A program made the position numbers and the translations under genes. From NCBI GenBank assembly GCA_008534395.1, contig SHMQ01000045.1:1-13864 (forward strand): a stretch of 13,864 nucleotides of DNA, in the 5' to 3' direction. How positions within the stretch are numbered: the stretch's first letter is position 1; each line of letters starts with the position of its first letter. The notes under the pieces are model-generated. The model did no database searches. It was not told the DNA's origin and saw nothing but the letters and a program-made list of their open reading frames with translations. The stretch is from Candidatus Acidulodesulfobacterium acidiphilum (GTDB taxonomy: Bacteria > SZUA-79 > Acidulodesulfobacterales > Acidulodesulfobacteraceae). Below are positions 188 to 10,171 of the stretch, in pieces.

Positions 188-229
188 TTATGCCAATTTG
201 GCATAAATATTTATGCCAAATTGGCATAA
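188..229. promoter_or_regulatory. Tandem 19-bp palindromic operators, probable activator-binding enhancer
   Basis: Two copies of TTATGCCAAWTTGGCATAA lie at 188-206 (central T) and 211-229 (central A), separated by ATAT. Each copy is a perfect palindrome around its central base. Because the central bases are complementary, the whole 42-bp block is also a perfect palindrome. The half-site is TTATGCCAA. The centres are 23 bp apart, about two helical turns, so two dimers would sit on nearly the same face of the DNA. The block is about 100-140 bp upstream of the start site predicted from the sigma-54 promoter at 303-318, the usual place for an enhancer-binding protein. The pairing is directly seen; the activator role is inferred. 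A repressor site, or a cruciform with no regulatory role, is possible but less likely. Confidence 0.75.
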
Positions 230-302: not shown

Positions 303-318
303 TGGCACATTTATTGCA
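303..318 (+). promoter_or_regulatory. Sigma-54 (-24/-12) promoter of the sulfur operon
   Basis: The sequence TGGCAC-ATTTA-TTGCA matches the RpoN consensus TGGCAC-N5-TTGCW at every defined base. The GG at 304-305 and the GC at 316-317 are exactly 12 bp apart, as required. Transcription would start near 329-330, leaving a leader of about 97 nt before the dsrE-like start codon. It is the only such match I found in the non-coding parts of the window. Sigma-54 promoters need a remote ATP-dependent activator, and the palindrome pair at 188-229 is suitably placed to bind one. Confidence 0.8.
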
Positions 319-426
319 ATATTTTTAATAAAAGTATACCAAAAATATATAAATATACTAAGTTATGCAATATAAAATTATTCAATATAAAAATATATTA
401 AAACATAACAATAAGGAGAGTGAATT

Positions 427-819
427 ATGTCTGACAAATTAGCGATTATTATCGCATCCGAAGAGTATGAAAAATCACACGTGGCTTCAATGATCGCGTC
501 TGTTGCAGCGGTTTCCGGGGTCGAGGTTTCTATTTTCGTAACTATGAATGCGGTTTACAATTTTTTAAAAGAAACGGTGGAAAAGAAAAATTTTACCGGC
601 GGAAAACTTTACGAACAGATAAAAGAAAAAAAAGCATCCATGTTTTACGAACTGTTTGATCAGGCAAAAATGTTGGGCGGTCTTAAAATTTATGTCTGCT
701 CAATGGTAATGGATATTCTTAAAATCGAAAAAGAAGATTTATTAGACATAGTAGACGATCATTTAGGTCTTGCGGCATTTTTAGGGATTATGGAAGGCGC
801 CGAAACGATAACTTTTTAA
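427..819 (+). CDS. DsrE-family sulfurtransferase-like protein (soluble, DsrE2/DsrE3-like)
   Basis: This 130-residue protein fits the DsrE fold. The N-terminal strand LAIIIAS is followed by a helix and a second strand, VEVSIFVTM. The only Cys, C91 in KIYVCSMVMDIL, occupies the place of the conserved DsrE2-type cysteine (family pattern roughly ACxMSMD). DsrE proteins accept sulfane sulfur on this cysteine and pass it to partners such as TusA, which is the next gene. No membrane helix is visible, unlike some DsrE2 proteins that carry one. AAGGAG at 413-418 lies 8 nt before the ATG. It is the first gene of the sigma-54-driven unit with tusA, sqr and the DUF1641 gene. Family assignment is firm; subtype and in vivo role are inferred. 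Confidence 0.85.
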   Translation: MSDKLAIIIASEEYEKSHVASMIASVAAVSGVEVSIFVTMNAVYNFLKETVEKKNFTGGKLYEQIKEKKASMFYELFDQAKMLGGLKIYVCSMVMDILKIEKEDLLDIVDDHLGLAAFLGIMEGAETITF

Positions 820-912
820 AGATAAACGACAAAAGTTTTTAAATATTCAATTTAAATGATTATAGATTTGATTCATAAAATAATTTAAAAATATTTAAGG
901 AGGTATTTAGTA

Positions 913-1173
913 ATGACAGAAGAAGAATTGAAACAGATTAAACCTACGGTTACGGTAGATGCAAGGGGAACATATTGCCCCGGTCCTCTTATGGAGTTGA
1001 TAAAAGAAGTTAGGCAGCAGCCGGTAGGTTCGGTAATAGAACTGATTTCCGGAGATGCCGGAAGCGCAAAAGACGTTCCCGAATGGCTAAATAAAGTAAA
1101 ACAGGAATTTCTTGGAGTTATTCCCGGTGATGGTTATTGGCGCATTTTTTCTAAAAAAGTTAAAGATATGTAA
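913..1173 (+). CDS. tusA: TusA-family sulfur carrier protein
   Basis: This 86-residue protein has the TusA/SirA signature: a strand with VDARG followed by YCPGPLMEL, where C22 of the Cys-Pro-x-Pro motif is the persulfide-carrying residue, then GSVIELISGD and a C-terminal strand. The N-terminus (about 12 residues) is slightly extended. TusA proteins carry sulfane sulfur between a donor and an acceptor. In sulfur oxidisers they work with Rhd, DsrE and Hdr- or Dsr-type systems rather than only in tRNA thiolation. The position between a DsrE protein and an SQR supports the dissimilatory or detoxifying role, although no Hdr, Dsr or rhodanese gene is in view. AAGGAGG at 897-903 lies 9 nt before the start. 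The 93-nt gap from the previous gene has no visible promoter or terminator. Confidence 0.9.
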   Translation: MTEEELKQIKPTVTVDARGTYCPGPLMELIKEVRQQPVGSVIELISGDAGSAKDVPEWLNKVKQEFLGVIPGDGYWRIFSKKVKDM

Positions 1174-1251
1174 AAACTAAAAATATTTTGTTTGCGTTAA
1201 ATTTAAATTATTTAAATTAATTTTTAAATTTTAATTTTTAAGGAGGCAGTT

Positions 1252-2391
1252 ATGTCAAAAAGAGTAGTTATAGTCGGAGGAGGAGTCGGTGGAACTATTA
1301 TCGCAAATTTACTTGCAAAGAAAATGCGCCCCGAACTTAAAAAAGGCGAGCTAGTAATTGACGTTATTTCCGATAAAGCGGAGCATTTTTATCAGCCTGG
1401 TCTTTTGTATATGCTATTCGGCATGAAACACTATGAAGAGCTTGTAAGAAACGAAATTGATTTGCTTGACCCGATGGTAGCGCTGCATCTTCACCCTGCA
1501 ATTAAAATAGATAAAGATAAAAACGAAGTTCATCTTAAAAACGGCGTTATAATTAAATACGACATATTGGTTCTTGCGACAGGCTCCAGGCCGGCTCCGG
1601 AAATGATACCGGGCTTAAAAGAAGGCGGAAATTGGTTTTACGAAATCGAAGCCTGCAGAAAACTTCGCCATGAATTAATGACGTTTAAAGGCGGGAAAAT
1701 TGTTTTAACTATAGGTCTTCCTCACAAATGTCCTGTCGCTCCGCTCGAAGTTTCCTATATGATGGACGAATGGTTCAGGCAGAGAGGATTAAGGGATAAG
1801 GTAGATTATACTTACACATATCCTATCGGCAGACTTCACGGACTTGAATCGGTAGCGCATTTTGCCGCTAAAACGTTCCCGAAACACGGAATAAATACAG
1901 AAACGTTATATAATATGAAAGAAGTCGATCCTAACAAAAAAACGGTTACCAGCCTTGAAGGAGTAACTTTAAAATATGATCTTCTTATTACTATTCCGCC
2001 GCATAAAGGAGCTCAGGTCATAGAAGATTCCGGGTTAGGACAGAACGGTTTCGTGCCTACCGATAAATTTACCCTTAAAATGGAAGGCTCGACAAATATT
2101 TACGTAGTCGGCGATACTACAAATCTTCCAATAAGTAAAGCCGGTTCGACCGCCCACTTTGAATCGGACATTATAGTCGAAAATATAGCATCCGAATTAA
2201 GAAATGGCTTGACGCCGTTCAGGTATGACGGAAAGGTTTTCTGCTTTATAGAAACCGGCCTATCTAAAGCCACTTATATTATGTTCGATTATAATAATCC
2301 GCCTAATCCCATTACTCCTTCGGCACTTATACACTGGTTTAAATTAACATACAATAAAGTTTACTGGCTGACCCCGATGGGAATTCTTTAA
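1252..2391 (+). CDS. sqr: Sulfide:quinone oxidoreductase-like FAD protein
   Basis: This 379-residue flavoprotein oxidises sulfide and reduces quinone at the cytoplasmic membrane face, if the family assignment holds. It starts with an FAD-binding Rossmann motif (VVIVGGGVGG, residues 5-14), has the SQR-like HFYQPGLLYML (45-55), the second dinucleotide motif LVLATGSRPAP (106-116) and the C-terminal FAD motif VVGDTT (285-290). Cys135, Cys160 (in PHKCPVAP) and Cys331 (in VFCFIETG) are its only cysteines. The last two occupy the usual redox-active positions of SQR, and all three fall where the three SQR cysteines are expected. The C-terminal segment HWFKLTYNKVYWLT resembles the membrane-contacting tail of the family. 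AAGGAGG at 1240-1246 is 5 nt before the ATG. The SQR subtype cannot be settled by eye. A related flavocytochrome c or NDH-2-like enzyme is less likely because of the cysteine pattern. Confidence 0.88.
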   Translation: MSKRVVIVGGGVGGTIIANLLAKKMRPELKKGELVIDVISDKAEHFYQPGLLYMLFGMKHYEELVRNEIDLLDPMVALHLHPAIKIDKDKNEVHLKNGVIIKYDILVLATGSRPAPEMIPGLKEGGNWFYEIEACRKLRHELMTFKGGKIVLTIGLPHKCPVAPLEVSYMMDEWFRQRGLRDKVDYTYTYPIGRLHGLESVAHFAAKTFPKHGINTETLYNMKEVDPNKKTVTSLEGVTLKYDLLITIPPHKGAQVIEDSGLGQNGFVPTDKFTLKMEGSTNIYVVGDTTNLPISKAGSTAHFESDIIVENIASELRNGLTPFRYDGKVFCFIETGLSKATYIMFDYNNPPNPITPSALIHWFKLTYNKVYWLTPMGIL

Positions 2392-2417
2392 TTTAATGTT
2401 ATAAATGGAGGCAAATT

Positions 2418-3509
2418 ATGGCTGAAAATGAAACAATAGACGTCGGTGCCGCCCTGACTAATAAACTCAAGGAAAAGCCGCAAGCTTTAGAACATTTATT
2501 AAATATTATCGATAGATTAGATACTCTTGACGAGTTTAGCGCAATGTTACAAGCTCAGAAAGACGGAGCTACCGATATGATGGTCCAGAGAGTCTCCGAT
2601 AATATTACTACAGGTCTTTCTATTATGGACAGTTTTTCTGGGGAAGAACAATTGTCTATGATTAAAACTGCCGGCAATAAAGCAGAAAGCCTTAAAAAGA
2701 GCATTGAAACGATTGCGGAACTAGAGAAATCCGGAACGCTTCAGTCGCTTAAAGAAATGGGCGATTTCGTAGCCGGTTTCAGCAAAGGCACTACCGACGC
2801 AATGATAGAGCGTATGGCCGGCACCGCAGAAAAATTGGCTGAGCTTACCGATTCTCTGACCGACGAAAATATGGTAGGTTTAATCAAAAAAGCTCAGCAT
2901 TTATCCGATTCGCTTGAAAATTCGTTAGATAAAATTGCGGAACTAGAGAAATCCGGAACGCTTCAGTCGCTTAAAGAAATGGGCGATTTCGTAGCCGGTT
3001 TCAGCAAGGGAATGACGGATTCTATGGTAGAACGCATGGCAGGCACCGCCGAGAAATTAACGGAACTTACCGATCTAACGTTAAATTATAATGTTAAACC
3101 GTTGTTAGATGCCGGCGAATCGCTTATTAACAGCGGAACATTGGATGATCTTATAGAATTGGCTAATGCGACGGCTGCCGCAAGGAAAATGCTTACGGAC
3201 GGATTAGTCGACAGGGTCGTAAATACGGCGCAGGCAATGGTTGAAGCCATCATGACGCAGGTGGATGTTAAAGAAGCTATAAAATCTATCAACCGTTCAA
3301 CTATTAAAACAATAAATAATGCCAAAGAAGAGAAATATGCAAAAGGAGGTATTTTGTCGTTATTATCTATGGCAAAAAATCCTGAAATAATGCAGGGTCT
3401 TAAATTTATGATGCTTTTATCTAAAAATTTAACCAGCGATATAAACGAACATGCAGAGGATATATTTATTACGGGTGAGATTGCCAAAAAAGAATTCAAA
3501 AAATTATAA
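2418..3509 (+). CDS. DUF1641-containing protein linked to SQR
   Basis: This 363-residue, almost wholly helical protein has no signal peptide, clear membrane span or cysteine. Residues about 310-340 (LSLLSMAKNPEIMQGLKFMM) match the DUF1641 pattern, in which an NPE-x-x-x-GL segment precedes a hydrophobic helix. DUF1641 proteins are often encoded beside SQR or formate dehydrogenase-like genes; no biochemical function is established that I know of. The middle consists of 74-residue repeats (from residues 99 and 173) that share ELEKSGTLQSLKEMGDFVAG and a following ERMAGTAEKL segment. The helical repeats suggest a scaffold or membrane-peripheral partner for SQR (inference). GGAGG at 2407-2411 precedes the ATG, only 26 bp after sqr, so the two are co-transcribed. 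A strong terminator follows at 3604-3650. Confidence 0.8.
   Translation: MAENETIDVGAALTNKLKEKPQALEHLLNIIDRLDTLDEFSAMLQAQKDGATDMMVQRVSDNITTGLSIMDSFSGEEQLSMIKTAGNKAESLKKSIETIAELEKSGTLQSLKEMGDFVAGFSKGTTDAMIERMAGTAEKLAELTDSLTDENMVGLIKKAQHLSDSLENSLDKIAELEKSGTLQSLKEMGDFVAGFSKGMTDSMVERMAGTAEKLTELTDLTLNYNVKPLLDAGESLINSGTLDDLIELANATAAARKMLTDGLVDRVVNTAQAMVEAIMTQVDVKEAIKSINRSTIKTINNAKEEKYAKGGILSLLSMAKNPEIMQGLKFMMLLSKNLTSDINEHAEDIFITGEIAKKEFKKL
2712..3007 (+). repeat. 74-bp exact direct repeat inside the DUF1641 gene
   Basis: Bases 2712-2785 and 2934-3007 are identical over 74 bp, with a 222-bp (74-codon) offset that keeps the reading frame. Similarity continues at protein level (ERMAGTAEKL in both) with scattered base differences. 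The identity extends to synonymous positions, so the copies come from a recent duplication or have been homogenised by gene conversion. Confidence 0.95.
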
Positions 3510-3603: not shown

Positions 3604-3650
3604 AAAGGCTATTAGCAATATTATTATTGCTAATAGCCTTTTTATTTTTT
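3604..3650 (+). terminator. Intrinsic terminator of the dsrE-tusA-sqr-DUF1641 unit
   Basis: A perfect 17-bp stem (3604-3620 with 3625-3641) has a four-base TTAT loop and runs directly into a T-rich tract, TTTTTATTTTTT, at 3639-3650. This is the strongest terminator in the window and marks the right end of the sigma-54-driven operon. Confidence 0.93.
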
Positions 3651-3783
3651 AAAATTTTATTTGAGTTTGTTATTGGATAAGGAACAAAAATATTTAAAAT
3701 TAAAATAAAAAATGATATTATTAAAAAGTTTAATATAAATACGATAAGCATATAAAACAATTCCAAAGGGGGAATAATATTAT

Positions 3784-5110: not shown

Positions 5111-5389
5111 ATGAAAAATATAGCAGTTTTAATTAAGTCCAAGGAAAGACATTCCGAAGGTTTAAGGATTTCTGCCGGATTAAGCCTTCTCGGCGATAAA
5201 GTAGATATTTTTCTTTTAAACGAAGATTTTAATGTAAACGATCTGCCGGTTATAAAGAATCATCTTGAAATGATTAAGGCGGTCGGCATAGGATTGTATT
5301 CAAATTTTAAAAAAGAAGGCTTCAGCTTTATTTCAGATTTAGATATAGGAAAAAAAATGTTAAAATACGATATCGTGTTTTTTTATTAA
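5111..5389 (+). CDS. Small DsrE/DsrF-fold-like protein, hypothetical
   Basis: This 92-residue protein starts with the strand IAVLIKS, then GLRISAGLSLL (helix) and DKVDIFLLNED (strand), the order expected for the first half of a DsrE/F/TusC-type fold, and ends with a strand, YDIVFFY. It has no cysteine, so it cannot carry a persulfide itself; a structural role, like non-catalytic DsrF/DsrH or TusB/TusC subunits, is possible. The stop is followed after one base by the next gene's ATG, so the two are translationally coupled and probably form a complex. A weak AAGAAAG lies upstream of the start. The family call rests on pattern only and could be wrong. Confidence 0.55.
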   Translation: MKNIAVLIKSKERHSEGLRISAGLSLLGDKVDIFLLNEDFNVNDLPVIKNHLEMIKAVGIGLYSNFKKEGFSFISDLDIGKKMLKYDIVFFY

Positions 5390-5390
5390 T

Positions 5391-5579
5391 ATGAAAATTT
5401 TATATTTAATAAAAGAAAAAATTGACGGGGATTTAGCTAAATCTTTTAACAGCGTCGTAGCCGCTCAAAAATCCGAGGGTATCGAGGTTTTAATAATTAA
5501 TCTTTGGGAAATAGATAGTAACGGTTACGACTCGGTTTTAGATAAAATTTTTGAATACGATAAAACTATATGCGTTTAA
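5391..5579 (+). CDS. Very small DsrH/TusB-like protein, hypothetical
   Basis: This 62-residue protein has the strand MKILYLIKEK, the helix SFNSVVAAQKS, the strand EVLIINLWE and a final YDKTICV strand. This is a reduced alpha/beta layout like DsrH/TusB or a cut-down DsrE protein. The only cysteine is Cys61, two residues from the end. It starts 1 bp after the stop of the preceding small gene and has no separate ribosome binding site, so translation probably depends on coupling. Base use matches its neighbours, and the reading frame agrees with the predicted strands. I cannot exclude that it is a fragment of a larger ancestral gene. Confidence 0.5.
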   Translation: MKILYLIKEKIDGDLAKSFNSVVAAQKSEGIEVLIINLWEIDSNGYDSVLDKIFEYDKTICV

Positions 5580-6517: not shown

Positions 6518-8731
6518 GTGAATAATTTAAACAGCGAAAAAAGTTCTTATTTAAGGTCGGCGGTTCATCAGCCTGTTAACTGGTATCCATGGTGTATGGA
6601 GGCTTTTGAAAAAGCTAAAGAAAAAGATTTGCCGGTTTTATTAGATATAGGCGCAGTCTGGTGTCACTGGTGCCACGTAATGGATTCCGAATCTTATGAA
6701 GACGAGGAAACTGCGGCTATAATCAATGAACATTATATCGCCGTTAAGGTTGACAAGGACGAAAGACCGGATGTAGATTCACGCTATCAAAAAGCCGTAA
6801 GCGTGTTTTCCGGTACCGGAGGGTGGCCTCTTACTGCTTTTTTAACCTGCGACGGTAATTTTTTTTACGGCGGAACATATTTTCCTAAAGAGCCGGCTTA
6901 CGGTTTGCCTTCATATAAATCGGTTTTAATTGAGATAGCAAAATATTATCGCGAGAACAAAGAGGCGGTTTTTAATCAGAGTTTAGATTTTTTTAAAAGA
7001 ATTTCAAGCGATGCGAATAAATTTTCTATATTTAATATAAATATTAAAAGAATTAACGATTCTATTAAAAAAGATAATTCGTTAAATATAGAATACGTAA
7101 AAAAGTTTATAAACGAAGCCTCGTATGAATATAAACTTCATTTCGACGATACAAACGGCGGAATAGACGAATCCCCTAAATTTTTTTATTTTTCTGCATT
7201 AGAACTTCTTGCTCTCGATTATATAGCGAACAGAGACAGGGATTCTTTAAATAAAGGAATTTATACTTTAAATAAAATTGCCTCCGGCGGAGTATTCGAC
7301 CATGTAGGGGGCGGTTTTCACAGATACTCTACGGACAAGAAATGGATAGTTCCCCACTTTGAAAAACTGGCGGAAGTTAACGCTCAGGCTTTAAGAACAT
7401 ATTTCTTATATTACAGGTTGACTAACGATAAAGCGCTTCTTAACGTTATAAATAAAACTTTAGATTTTATAACGGGAGAGCTTTACGACCGCATAAACGG
7501 CGGTTTTTATGGAAGCATCGATGCCGATACCGGAGACGAAGACGACGGAAAATTTTATACCTGGTCGTATAACGAGTTCAGGGAAATTTTTTCCGAAAGA
7601 GAAGAATTTAAAGCGGCGGCGGAAATATTTAATATAAATAAAGAAGGAATTATGCATAACGGCAAAAAGGATTGCGATAACGCCGGCGAATATTCCGATT
7701 CGCAGTCTAACATCGCTTATGAACCCGGCGAAATTCCTAACGTATTATATTTAGGCGATAATTTTGAATATTTAGGCGGTAAAATTTACGAATCGGCGAT
7801 TTTGAAACTAAAAAATTTTAGGGACAGGAGAAAAAAACCTTTCATAGACAGAGTAAAATATTCTTCTTTAAACGGCAATATAATATATTCTATTACCGAA
7901 TTGAGCAAAATTTTTAATCCTTTTGATTTAAACAGACAAAAATTAAATAAGATAGGAGAAATATCCATAAAGCTTTTTATGGATATTTTTGATAAAAACG
8001 GCGACGTCGGCAGATTTATAGGCGAAGCAGGCGGTTCCGTTTTGGAAGATAATGCTTATATAGTGCTGTCGTTAATCGGTTTATTCGAAACGACGTCGAA
8101 TCCCGTATATTTTATTTACGCAAAAAAAATTGCCGAATATACGATAAAAAATTTTTATGATTGGGAAAGAGGCGGTTTTTTTGATATACAGCATACGACG
8201 AAAAGCTCTAAGATAGGCTACCTCGTCCATAAAGAAAAAAATATAGCCGACTACGGCGGCTGTTCGCAAAATGCCTCTGTTTTGCTTGCTATGTCAAAAC
8301 TTTATATTCTTACCGGAGAGATTCAGTTTAAAAACGTCATTTTAAAATCTTTCGAATATTTTATAAACGAAGCGAGTATGCTTAAACATAGCGCTTCGGG
8401 GTATCTTGCCGGTTTGATATATTATGCCGACAAAGCCAAGGTTAATGTTATAGTAGGCAGATATAACGATAAAGCCGTAATAGATTTTTATTCTATCTAC
8501 GAGAAACTGAATACTTTCGATAAATTAAAAACGGGATTTAATTCTTTTAATATTTTTATAGATGCAGGTAATAAAGAAATTATAGATATTTATTCAGGCT
8601 TTGCAGGTTATCAAAAAGGCGATGCGCTTATTCTGGAAGAAATAAGAAATGCCGTAGCTGAATACGGAAGAGTAAAAAAACCTTTAGTATTTATGTGCGG
8701 TTACAAATCGTGCAATACAAAAATTTTATAA
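6518..8731 (+). CDS. Thioredoxin-domain protein with six-hairpin-like domain (DUF255, YyaL/SPATA20 family)
   Basis: This 737-residue protein has an N-terminal thioredoxin-like DUF255 domain (about residues 8-165) with the signatures HQPVNWYPW, a CxxC in AVWCHWCHVM (Cys49 and Cys52), DKDERPDVD and GTGGWPLTAF. It is followed by a large helical (six-hairpin-glycosidase-like) region carrying GGGFHRYSTD (near residue 265), PHFEKLAEVNAQ and IDADTGDEDDGKFYTW. The family is widespread and the precise function is not settled; a role in thiol or redox chemistry, or in carbohydrate handling, has been proposed from the domains. The start is GTG at 6518, with AAGGAAA at 6501-6507 upstream. Length is near the upper end of the usual range. 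It stands alone, with modest gaps on both sides. Confidence 0.9.
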   Translation: MNNLNSEKSSYLRSAVHQPVNWYPWCMEAFEKAKEKDLPVLLDIGAVWCHWCHVMDSESYEDEETAAIINEHYIAVKVDKDERPDVDSRYQKAVSVFSGTGGWPLTAFLTCDGNFFYGGTYFPKEPAYGLPSYKSVLIEIAKYYRENKEAVFNQSLDFFKRISSDANKFSIFNINIKRINDSIKKDNSLNIEYVKKFINEASYEYKLHFDDTNGGIDESPKFFYFSALELLALDYIANRDRDSLNKGIYTLNKIASGGVFDHVGGGFHRYSTDKKWIVPHFEKLAEVNAQALRTYFLYYRLTNDKALLNVINKTLDFITGELYDRINGGFYGSIDADTGDEDDGKFYTWSYNEFREIFSEREEFKAAAEIFNINKEGIMHNGKKDCDNAGEYSDSQSNIAYEPGEIPNVLYLGDNFEYLGGKIYESAILKLKNFRDRRKKPFIDRVKYSSLNGNIIYSITELSKIFNPFDLNRQKLNKIGEISIKLFMDIFDKNGDVGRFIGEAGGSVLEDNAYIVLSLIGLFETTSNPVYFIYAKKIAEYTIKNFYDWERGGFFDIQHTTKSSKIGYLVHKEKNIADYGGCSQNASVLLAMSKLYILTGEIQFKNVILKSFEYFINEASMLKHSASGYLAGLIYYADKAKVNVIVGRYNDKAVIDFYSIYEKLNTFDKLKTGFNSFNIFIDAGNKEIIDIYSGFAGYQKGDALILEEIRNAVAEYGRVKKPLVFMCGYKSCNTKIL

Positions 8732-8758
8732 AAAACATGACAAAAATAACTATTACTC

Positions 8759-8788
8759 TTGACACAAATTAATATTTTGTAGTAATAT
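8759..8788 (+). promoter_or_regulatory. Candidate sigma-70-type promoter of the LysM-NlpC/P60 gene
   Basis: A perfect -35 hexamer, TTGACA (8759-8764), is followed after 18 bp by TAATAT (8783-8788), which matches four of six bases of the -10 consensus. It lies about 90 bp before the wall hydrolase start, in the gap after the DUF255 gene. The -35 match is strong; the -10 match is only fair in such AT-rich DNA. Confidence 0.45.
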
Positions 8789-8878
8789 ACTCTACTAAAG
8801 ATAATCAATTGCACAAAAACGTTATGCAAGGGAATAAAAAGTTTAACATTTAACTGTTTAAAAGCAGGAGAAGTCGTC

Positions 8879-10171
8879 ATGAAAAAGGTATTGGCTTTGT
8901 TTGTTTTTTTAACAATACTTTTTATTTTAAACTTAAATGCCTATTCTTATATTAACGTAATTACCGTCAGTCCCGGAGCAACGCTCGGCCAGATAGCGGA
9001 CAACTACAATACCAGCGTAAGTTCTATAATGTCTTTAAACGGGCTTCATAACTACGTCATATATCCGGGCGAAAAATTAAAAGTTCCCGCAAACGGTTCT
9101 TATCAACCTGCACCGCGGTACGGCCATTACACCGTCCAATTCGGCGACACTCTTTCTTTAATAGCCCAGAAATACGGCACTTCCATTGCCGAACTCAGGA
9201 AGCTTAATCATCTTTATTCAAACGTAATAAGGACTGGAGCGGTACTTACCGTGCCCATCGGAAATAATACTGGAAACGGAACGGCTTCACAGGCGGTTGC
9301 ATATATTACCGTCAGCCCGGGAGCAACGCTCGGCCAGATAGCGGACAACTACAATACCAGCGTAAGTTCTATAATGTCTTTAAACGGGCTTCATAACTAC
9401 GTCATATATCCGGGCGAAAAATTAAAAGTTCCCGCAAACGGTTCTTATCAACCTGCACCGCGGTACGGCCATTACACCGTCCAATTCGGCGACACTCTTT
9501 CTTTAATAGCCCAGAAATACGGCACTTCCATTGCCGAACTCAGGAAGCTTAATCATCTTTATTCAAACGTAATAAGGACTGGAGCGGTACTGGCAGTTCC
9601 TGAAAGTTATAAGAAAATTTATCCTTATAGGACTGCTGAAAATAACGACGTAAAAAATCATAAATACGATTATTTCGGAAATAAAAACGTTTCAAAAAAA
9701 ACAGGTTATCAAGTAGCAACTTTTAAAGTAGTTAATCCAAACAGATGTTCTTTGAACGGCAATGGAGCCGCTGGTAAAAAAACGGACGGAATAGATAATT
9801 TAAATATTGGAGAAAAAATTGTAGATACTGCTTATAAATATCAAGGCGTACCTTATGTATGGGGCGGCACTACACGCTCAGGCATGGACTGTTCGGGATT
9901 TGCCCAGCATGTTTTCGGCAAAATAGGCATAGATTTGCCGAGAACGGCAGCGGAACAGGCAAGATTGGGCAAGTATGTTCCAAAAAATAAATTAAAACCA
10001 GGCGATCTTTTATTCTTCAGAACTTATGCACCCTATATTTCCCATGTAGGAATATATATAGGCCATGGTAAGTTTATCCAGGAAAATTCAGGAGCCGGAA
10101 TGGTTACTATTAACAGTTTAAACAACGAGTATTTTGAAAGAACTTATGCTTTTGCAAAGTCTATAAAATAA
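8879..10171 (+). CDS. Secreted LysM-NlpC/P60 peptidoglycan hydrolase
   Basis: This 430-residue protein starts with a signal peptide (MKKVLALFVF and a hydrophobic run ending near NLNAYS) and has four LysM-like domains in two identical pairs (about 27-122 and 142-237). It then has a roughly 85-residue linker and a C-terminal NlpC/P60 domain (about 310-430). In that domain GMDCSGF carries catalytic Cys338 and SHVGIYIG carries His389, with Gln401 at the third, polar position. Such proteins bind peptidoglycan through LysM and cut stem peptides in the periplasm or wall. The first LysM of each pair (SPGATLGQIADNY) is less typical than the second (FGDTLSLIAQKYG). AGCAGGAGAAG, 8863-8873, is the likely ribosome binding site. 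It could be an endopeptidase for cell growth or division; the exact bond cut is not visible. Confidence 0.92.
   Translation: MKKVLALFVFLTILFILNLNAYSYINVITVSPGATLGQIADNYNTSVSSIMSLNGLHNYVIYPGEKLKVPANGSYQPAPRYGHYTVQFGDTLSLIAQKYGTSIAELRKLNHLYSNVIRTGAVLTVPIGNNTGNGTASQAVAYITVSPGATLGQIADNYNTSVSSIMSLNGLHNYVIYPGEKLKVPANGSYQPAPRYGHYTVQFGDTLSLIAQKYGTSIAELRKLNHLYSNVIRTGAVLAVPESYKKIYPYRTAENNDVKNHKYDYFGNKNVSKKTGYQVATFKVVNPNRCSLNGNGAAGKKTDGIDNLNIGEKIVDTAYKYQGVPYVWGGTTRSGMDCSGFAQHVFGKIGIDLPRTAAEQARLGKYVPKNKLKPGDLLFFRTYAPYISHVGIYIGHGKFIQENSGAGMVTINSLNNEYFERTYAFAKSIK
8975..9591 (+). repeat. 272-bp perfect direct repeat encoding a LysM pair
   Basis: Bases 8975-9246 and 9320-9591 are identical over 272 bp with a 345-bp (115-codon) offset. 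Each copy encodes two LysM-type motifs. Similarity extends a few bases further left, with only synonymous differences at 8971/9316 and 8974/9319. Perfect identity over codon third positions indicates a very recent in-frame duplication, or conversion between copies. Confidence 0.97.

Follow-up and report, generated by a model that had tools for sequence, protein, structure and literature searches.

Conserved promoter and paired enhancer sequences point to sigma-54 control of a dsrE-tusA-sqr unit in Candidatus Acidulodesulfobacterium acidiphilum

The window analyzed here, a stretch of 13,864 nucleotides from Candidatus Acidulodesulfobacterium acidiphilum, makes up the whole of contig 45 in a draft genome of 2.09 Mb (G000; 100% complete, 0.03% contamination) that has a low GC content and carries sqr, sox-type genes, and a nifH-like gene, features in keeping with Candidatus Acidulodesulfobacterales. 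The host family consists of uncultured, little-known bacteria, probably of acid-mine drainage, and sqr and sirA (TusA family) of Candidatus Acidulodesulfobacterales are among the transcripts highlighted in an acid-mine-drainage metatranscriptome (PMC6776010). A dsrE-tusA-sqr-DUF unit spans positions 427-3509 of the window and is followed by a strong terminator (Table 1), whose stem and T-rich tail bear out the clean terminator described in the initial annotation. The names given there to the first three genes also stand, on the strength of Pfam matches and of solved sulfide:quinone oxidoreductases (SQRs). The third protein matches Pfam Pyr_redox_2 and solved SQR homologs at E = 2e-32, and it scores 336 bits against the NCBIfam SQR_III model, under the cut-off of 525. 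Both catalytic cysteines expected at the FAD of an SQR are present as C160 (KCPVAP) and C331, which align with cysteines of a solved enzyme and are invariant (n = 8 sequences). The DUF1641 name of the fourth gene is less secure, as its product falls short of the curated Pfam score for PF07849 (15.0 bits against a cut-off of 21, residues 305-338). Within this DUF1641-like protein, IAELEKSGTLQSLKEMGDFVAGFSKG occurs twice as an internal repeat, and the match in one relative (G010) is ≈74 columns longer, so that the repeat number varies. The gene order of the unit is the same in relatives throughout the family, some of which have an additional tusA copy.

Table 1 Coordinates of the predicted regulatory elements, the gene unit, and the candidate activator pair
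Feature	Position	Strand	Evidence
Distal enhancer half, palindrome TTATGCCAATTTGGCATAA, predicted activator-dimer site, ≈-132	188..206	.	Core invariant in alignment of 8 relatives
Proximal enhancer half, palindrome TTATGCCAAATTGGCATAA, ≈-109	211..229	.	Same alignment of 8 relatives
Sigma-54 -24/-12 promoter TGGCACATTTATTGC	303..317	+	Perfect match; GG and GC kept in relatives
Predicted transcription start	329..329	+	12 nt after the -12 element, inferred from position
dsrE-like sulfur carrier, 130 aa	427..819	+	Pfam PF13686, PF02635
tusA-like sulfur carrier, 86 aa, CPGP motif	913..1173	+	Pfam PF01206
sqr, sulfide:quinone oxidoreductase, 379 aa, nearest type III SQR model	1252..2391	+	Solved SQR homologs
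DUF1641-like protein, internal repeat, 363 aa	2418..3509	+	Sub-threshold PF07849; position after sqr kept in family
Intrinsic terminator, 17-bp stem and T-rich tail	3604..3651 (stem 3604-3641)	+	Terminator/hairpin scan
OG8 PAS kinase/response-regulator pair	G000:C9, L103:8841-10010 and 7493-8839	-	Activator profile

Elsewhere in the window, two short ORFs of 92 and 62 aa (5111-5579) resemble by eye degenerate DsrF/DsrH-type proteins, and a Pfam search with the two returned no match; similar ORFs sit divergently upstream of dsrE in G017. An NlpC/P60 protein with LysM domains (8879-10171) contains an internal duplication 345 bp apart, and the -24/-12-like matches at 9175 and 9520 are consequently one sequence present twice.

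Ahead of the unit lies TGGCACATTTATTGC, the sole -24/-12 match without a mismatch in the window, 110 nt before the dsrE start. It has the features of a sigma-54 promoter, with invariant GG and GC, the correct spacing, and a position upstream of a gene, and the consensus RpoN site reported initially is confirmed both in its sequence and in its conservation among relatives. We rejected a consensus -24/-12 sequence by itself as evidence: across the genome, matches with up to one mismatch number 25 forward and 29 reverse, no more than the 23 and 33 of a reversed-pattern control, and matches with up to two mismatches in the window number 7 against 5.8 by chance. The motif alone being weak, it is the position and conservation of the element that lead us to take it as real. 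No sigma-70-like site was found on the plus strand before dsrE (positions 1-430).

A feature that the initial annotation missed is the enhancer, or UAS, which takes the form of two perfect 19-bp palindromes, TTATGCCAANTTGGCATAA. The palindrome centers lie 23 bp apart, or about two helical turns, with the predicted start ≈109 and 132 bp downstream of them; tandem sites at such a distance are typical of enhancers to which a sigma-54 activator binds as two dimers. The predicted enhancer thus lies where one would be expected (≈80-150 bp upstream of the start), and its sequence is conserved. The only two exact copies of the palindrome in the genome are those found here, with no further copy within two mismatches; allowing up to three adds just three sites, every one of them at three mismatches.

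Conservation of both elements was assessed in 21 dsrE upstream regions, the window included, with 2,000 dinucleotide shuffles of each region as the control. A strict NGGCA[CT]N5TTGC sequence within 420 nt of dsrE and a strict TGNCAN3TGNCA UAS core each occur in 17 of the 21 regions (0.04 expected in either case), and the -24/-12 element and paired UAS occur together in register in 15 of 21 against 0 expected, in a set that holds close relatives of shared ancestry and, with L080 and L081 near-identical, at most 20 independent regions. In L086 and L093 the paired UAS is intact and the -24 element reads GGTAT (CGGTAT), L080 and L081 have a relaxed UAS only, and L092 has both elements farther upstream, with the -24/-12 at -499 and the UAS at -694 and -673. 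The sole locus with neither element belongs to G017 (L091); a replacement sigma-70 promoter there (TTGACA-N18-TATTAT, 11/12) was considered and rejected, promoter-like sites in that region numbering 7 against 5.6 expected. An alignment of eight upstream regions shows the palindrome cores and the GG/GC to be mostly invariant and the intervening DNA to be much less so. Searched for across 30 family genomes, the combined -24/-12 and UAS pattern gave 20 among the matches listed against 4 in the reversed control and, at longer spacing, 29 against 1, counts that take in non-dsrE targets, chiefly htrA. The near-identical operon contigs come from two genera (L081, G029:C227; L080, G015:C48), which is probably a binning error; G029 has a second sqr, 82% identical.

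Outside the family, dsrE-tusA-sqr clusters with the same genes, often in the same order, occur in Alphaproteobacteria, Magnetococcales, Campylobacterales, Bacillota, Archaeoglobus, and others. These clusters differ in that no -24/-12 element scoring ≥9/10 was found within 350 nt of the first gene, although longer leaders or additional upstream genes could hide such a site. The widely spread regulon suggested initially is accordingly not supported: the gene set is found in many phyla, and a comparable sigma-54 site was found only in the unit's own family.

A search of the genome identified one rpoN and nine full-length sigma-54 activators, and the possibility that rpoN is absent, on which the initial proposal would have fallen, does not apply. 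Seven of the nine activators have a receiver domain, one has a MetOD1-AAA+-Fis architecture, and one, without a recognized receiver domain, lies among flagellar genes. With the -24/-12 element, the conserved paired UAS, rpoN, and nine activators, functional sigma-54 control is near certain in computational terms, and the sigma-54 control of the unit put forward initially is supported. Judging from these sequence features, we estimate a probability of ≈85% that the dsrE-tusA-sqr-DUF unit is under sigma-54 and enhancer control, a value that covers this mode of control and not the identity of the activator. We propose that sigma-54 RNA polymerase would transcribe the unit from its -24/-12 element, and that a signal, acting through a kinase, would yield a phosphorylated AAA+ activator sitting as two dimers on the tandem palindromes (188-229). 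We infer that the AT-rich stretch between enhancer and promoter would loop to bring this activator to the polymerase and that its effect would be positive, the promoter being opened at ≈329 when the signal is present so that SQR and the sulfur carriers are made. SQR would then oxidize sulfide to sulfane sulfur with quinone as the acceptor, and DsrE and TusA would carry the sulfane sulfur. Going by gene function, sulfide or one of its products has about even odds of being the signal.

Sequences of this kind could in principle arise otherwise. The palindromes might be an ordinary repressor or activator site, or a terminator, unrelated to sigma-54, with the -24/-12 element matching by chance, and the terminator/hairpin scan does score them as a terminator-like hairpin. 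Such a coincidence is highly improbable, however, given that the UAS and the -24/-12 element occur together, with several different spacings, ahead of nearly every operon among the relatives, that each copy is itself palindromic while the two copies differ from each other in relatives, and that dsrE lacks a sigma-70-like promoter on its strand. A different question is whether the operon is driven by a one-component activator that senses sulfane sulfur. A few Proteobacteria are known to place sigma-54 promoters under sulfide-responsive control by way of FisR. In Cupriavidus pinatubonensis and Acinetobacter baumannii, FisR and sigma-54 control sqr-pdo operons, and the A. baumannii FisR adjoins its own operon (PMC7315123). 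The unit described here has in common with these systems a sigma-54 promoter on an sqr-containing operon, and hence the same enzyme and sigma factor (PMC7315123), as well as rpoN and AAA+ activators in the genome. FisR operons, however, carry a persulfide dioxygenase and TauE, whereas the partners of sqr here are dsrE, tusA, and the DUF1641-like gene; and unlike in A. baumannii, no activator gene was found in the family operon neighborhoods searched, with the exception of G021. G000 does hold one activator, and only one, that is clearly FisR-like, the MetOD1-AAA+-Fis protein (L098:4359-5924), which has no receiver domain and has a Cys-containing sensory domain, and in G021 the MetOD1 cassette lies directly upstream of dsrE-tusA-sqr. 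Yet this activator occurs in just 4 of the 30 family genomes, as opposed to the near-universal dsrE enhancer of operon-bearing genomes. It is also divergent from a CS2-hydrolase/β-carbonic-anhydrase-type gene in G000, G021, and G027, and the promoter before that gene, its presumed target, is without TGNCAN3TGNCA. Because it is rare in the family and tied to the CS2-hydrolase-like gene, we rejected the MetOD1 activator as the conserved dsrE regulator, and the FisR-type control raised initially becomes very unlikely.

A sulfur-responsive two-component system acting on the operon together with sox must also be weighed. In Acidithiobacillus caldus, TspS/TspR exerts sigma-54 two-component control of sox, and the published TspR site is TGTCCCAAATGGGACA (PMC6335251). 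The unit shares with that system a sulfur-oxidation operon, sigma-54, a palindromic UAS, and probably a two-component activator, and G000 has its own TspR-like kinase/response-regulator pair adjoining ccdA-soxY-soxZ-like genes that have a separate sigma-54 site (L102, G000:C6, 787-8381). The sigma-54 site at this sox-type locus (3349, minus strand) is accompanied by the palindrome TTGTCC-N6-GGACAA, a form close to that of the A. caldus TspR site. The likely UAS of the pair (TGTCC-N6-GGACA) therefore fits TGTCCCAAATGGGACA (PMC6335251) and not the dsrE UAS, ATGCCAANTTGGCAT; the target genes differ from those of A. caldus as well, and a genome in which dsrE does have the promoter and enhancer, G018, yielded no member of the group to which the pair belongs (OG5). 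On these grounds we rejected the TspR-like pair as the dsrE regulator, and joint control with sox is likewise very improbable. The control of the unit resembles FisR-sqr or TspR-sox but is a member of neither, because a conserved one-component activator and a persulfide dioxygenase are both missing and the TspR site differs. It is instead a variation, specific to this lineage, on an established type of control, and its enhancer has long been conserved. Sigma-54 acts on an SQR operon here through a different and exactly definable enhancer, probably with an activator of a different class from FisR, and that enhancer offers a way to identify the activator, and the signal to which it responds, in bacteria that are not yet in culture.

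The dsrE activator under sigma-54 and enhancer control is most likely of the response-regulator type rather than the FisR type. An activator tree covered G000 and eight further genomes, the enhancer-bearing ones among those profiled being G000, G008, G016, G018, and G019. OG3, OG7, and OG8 are the only profiled groups present in every one of these, and OG8 alone of the three is missing from G017, where the promoter and enhancer have been lost. This pattern makes the OG8 pair of PAS kinase and response regulator (G000:C9) the best single candidate, at odds that we place a little short of even; its correlation with the enhancer is a suggestive lead that turns on one correlated loss, in a draft genome (G017) that is 95% complete. 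OG8 is present in 28 of the 30 family genomes and missing from G017 and G024, in the latter of which an sqr search gave no match. Some genomes in which no sqr operon was detected, G001 and G013 among them, retain OG8 all the same, so that it must have other targets, and no dsrE-type site was seen next to its own gene. The upstream neighbor of OG8, where readable, is a histidine kinase, which in G000 has a PAS domain and in all copies read keeps the motif CY-x3-H-x5-PC-x6-C. Binding of the palindromes by another response-regulator activator, either OG3 (NtrX-like) or OG7, is a less likely though still serious alternative. Both occur in all profiled UAS-positive genomes, and OG7 lies near OG8 in the tree with a similar C-terminal helix (VYRKL); however, both are also kept in G017, where the dsrE promoter is without the -24/-12 and UAS.

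The arrangement in G021 (L342, G021:C8, 1-5733) is of separate interest. The CS2-hydrolase-like gene, a nickel transporter, dsrE, tusA, and sqr, the last cut by the contig end, follow one another there in this order on one strand. The ≈73 bp between the transporter and dsrE contain neither a -24/-12 element nor a UAS, and TGGCATGAGATTTGC lies ahead of the first gene, so that dsrE-tusA-sqr has apparently been rewired to a different sigma-54 promoter behind the CS2-hydrolase/nickel-transporter cassette. Hydrolysis of CS2 yields sulfide, the substrate of SQR, and the arrangement makes sense in that light. The best solved homolog of the G000 CS2-hydrolase-like protein is a CS2 hydrolase (3ten, E = 2.4e-52), and a literature search for 'CS2 hydrolase' together with 'sigma54' returned no paper. 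The loci concerned are L098 (G000:C5, 4359-8444), L342, L343, and L374; in the G000:C5 cassette, the MetOD1 activator is divergent from the CS2-hydrolase-like gene and a nickel transporter, with a sigma-54-like site at C5:6254, and a homolog of the activator is found on a Methylobacter plasmid near a 'carbonic anhydrase' gene. More speculatively, and with doubt outweighing confidence, the family may possess an undescribed two-component system in which a PAS kinase with the CY-x3-H-x5-PC-x6-C motif, its cysteines sensing sulfide or persulfide, would work with an activator on ATGNCAANTTGNCAT enhancers before dsrE-tusA-sqr, one relative's operon having been rewired behind the CS2-hydrolase-like gene under a different sigma-54 activator.

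The RpoN regulon of G000 was sampled by pattern searches and in selected stretches. Intergenic sigma-54-like sites precede htrA, flagellar genes, an lpxC-like gene, a nifH-like gene, and others, as well as one sox-type unit, and the expectation that further such sites might mark sulfur genes is mainly not borne out. The site of htrA, which encodes a Do-type protease and sits downstream of clpB, is perfect in G000 (C14:43876, in the stretch 43876-43942), and in many family genomes htrA has a sigma-54 site with a paired TTGTCATNATGACAA-type UAS (relatives' loci L117, L118, L125, L126, L128, L132, L229, L231, L236, L238, and L240). The TGNCAN3TGNCA core is not private to one activator, as it also stands before htrA, including that of G017, which lacks OG8. 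Among the sites compared, which were picked by hand and omit the dsrE sites of genera g2 and g4, themselves more divergent, UAS positions -7/+7 are A/T before dsrE and T/A before htrA, and positions -1/+1 differ too. A single activator for both genes is disfavored by these differences and by the htrA site of G017. The comparison lends support to the idea that two activators with related helices may serve dsrE and htrA; OG7 and OG8 group together in the tree and have similar C-termini.

Related sites were seen elsewhere in the family. At L224 (G003:C69, 907-3222), the gene after tusA encodes a GAF-like-AAA+ activator, and a sigma-54 site and UAS belong to this locus itself. A UAS of the form GTTGGCANNATGNCAAC also lies before a porin-like gene (G003, G012) and before a chemoreceptor-like gene at the right end of G000:C14. 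That end and the left end of C61, which starts within the chemoreceptor-like gene, seem to overlap, placing a [NiFe]-hydrogenase-like gene pair downstream of it. A UAS-like site before the hydrogenase gene (C61:905) was rejected as a sigma-54 target, no -24/-12 being seen there. A paired UAS and sigma-54 site precede the gene for an exported protein of no recognized family at L248 (G013:C80, 1037-2685) and L250 (G018:C21); the protein is possibly haem-binding, and the dsrE activator may have its gene as a second target.
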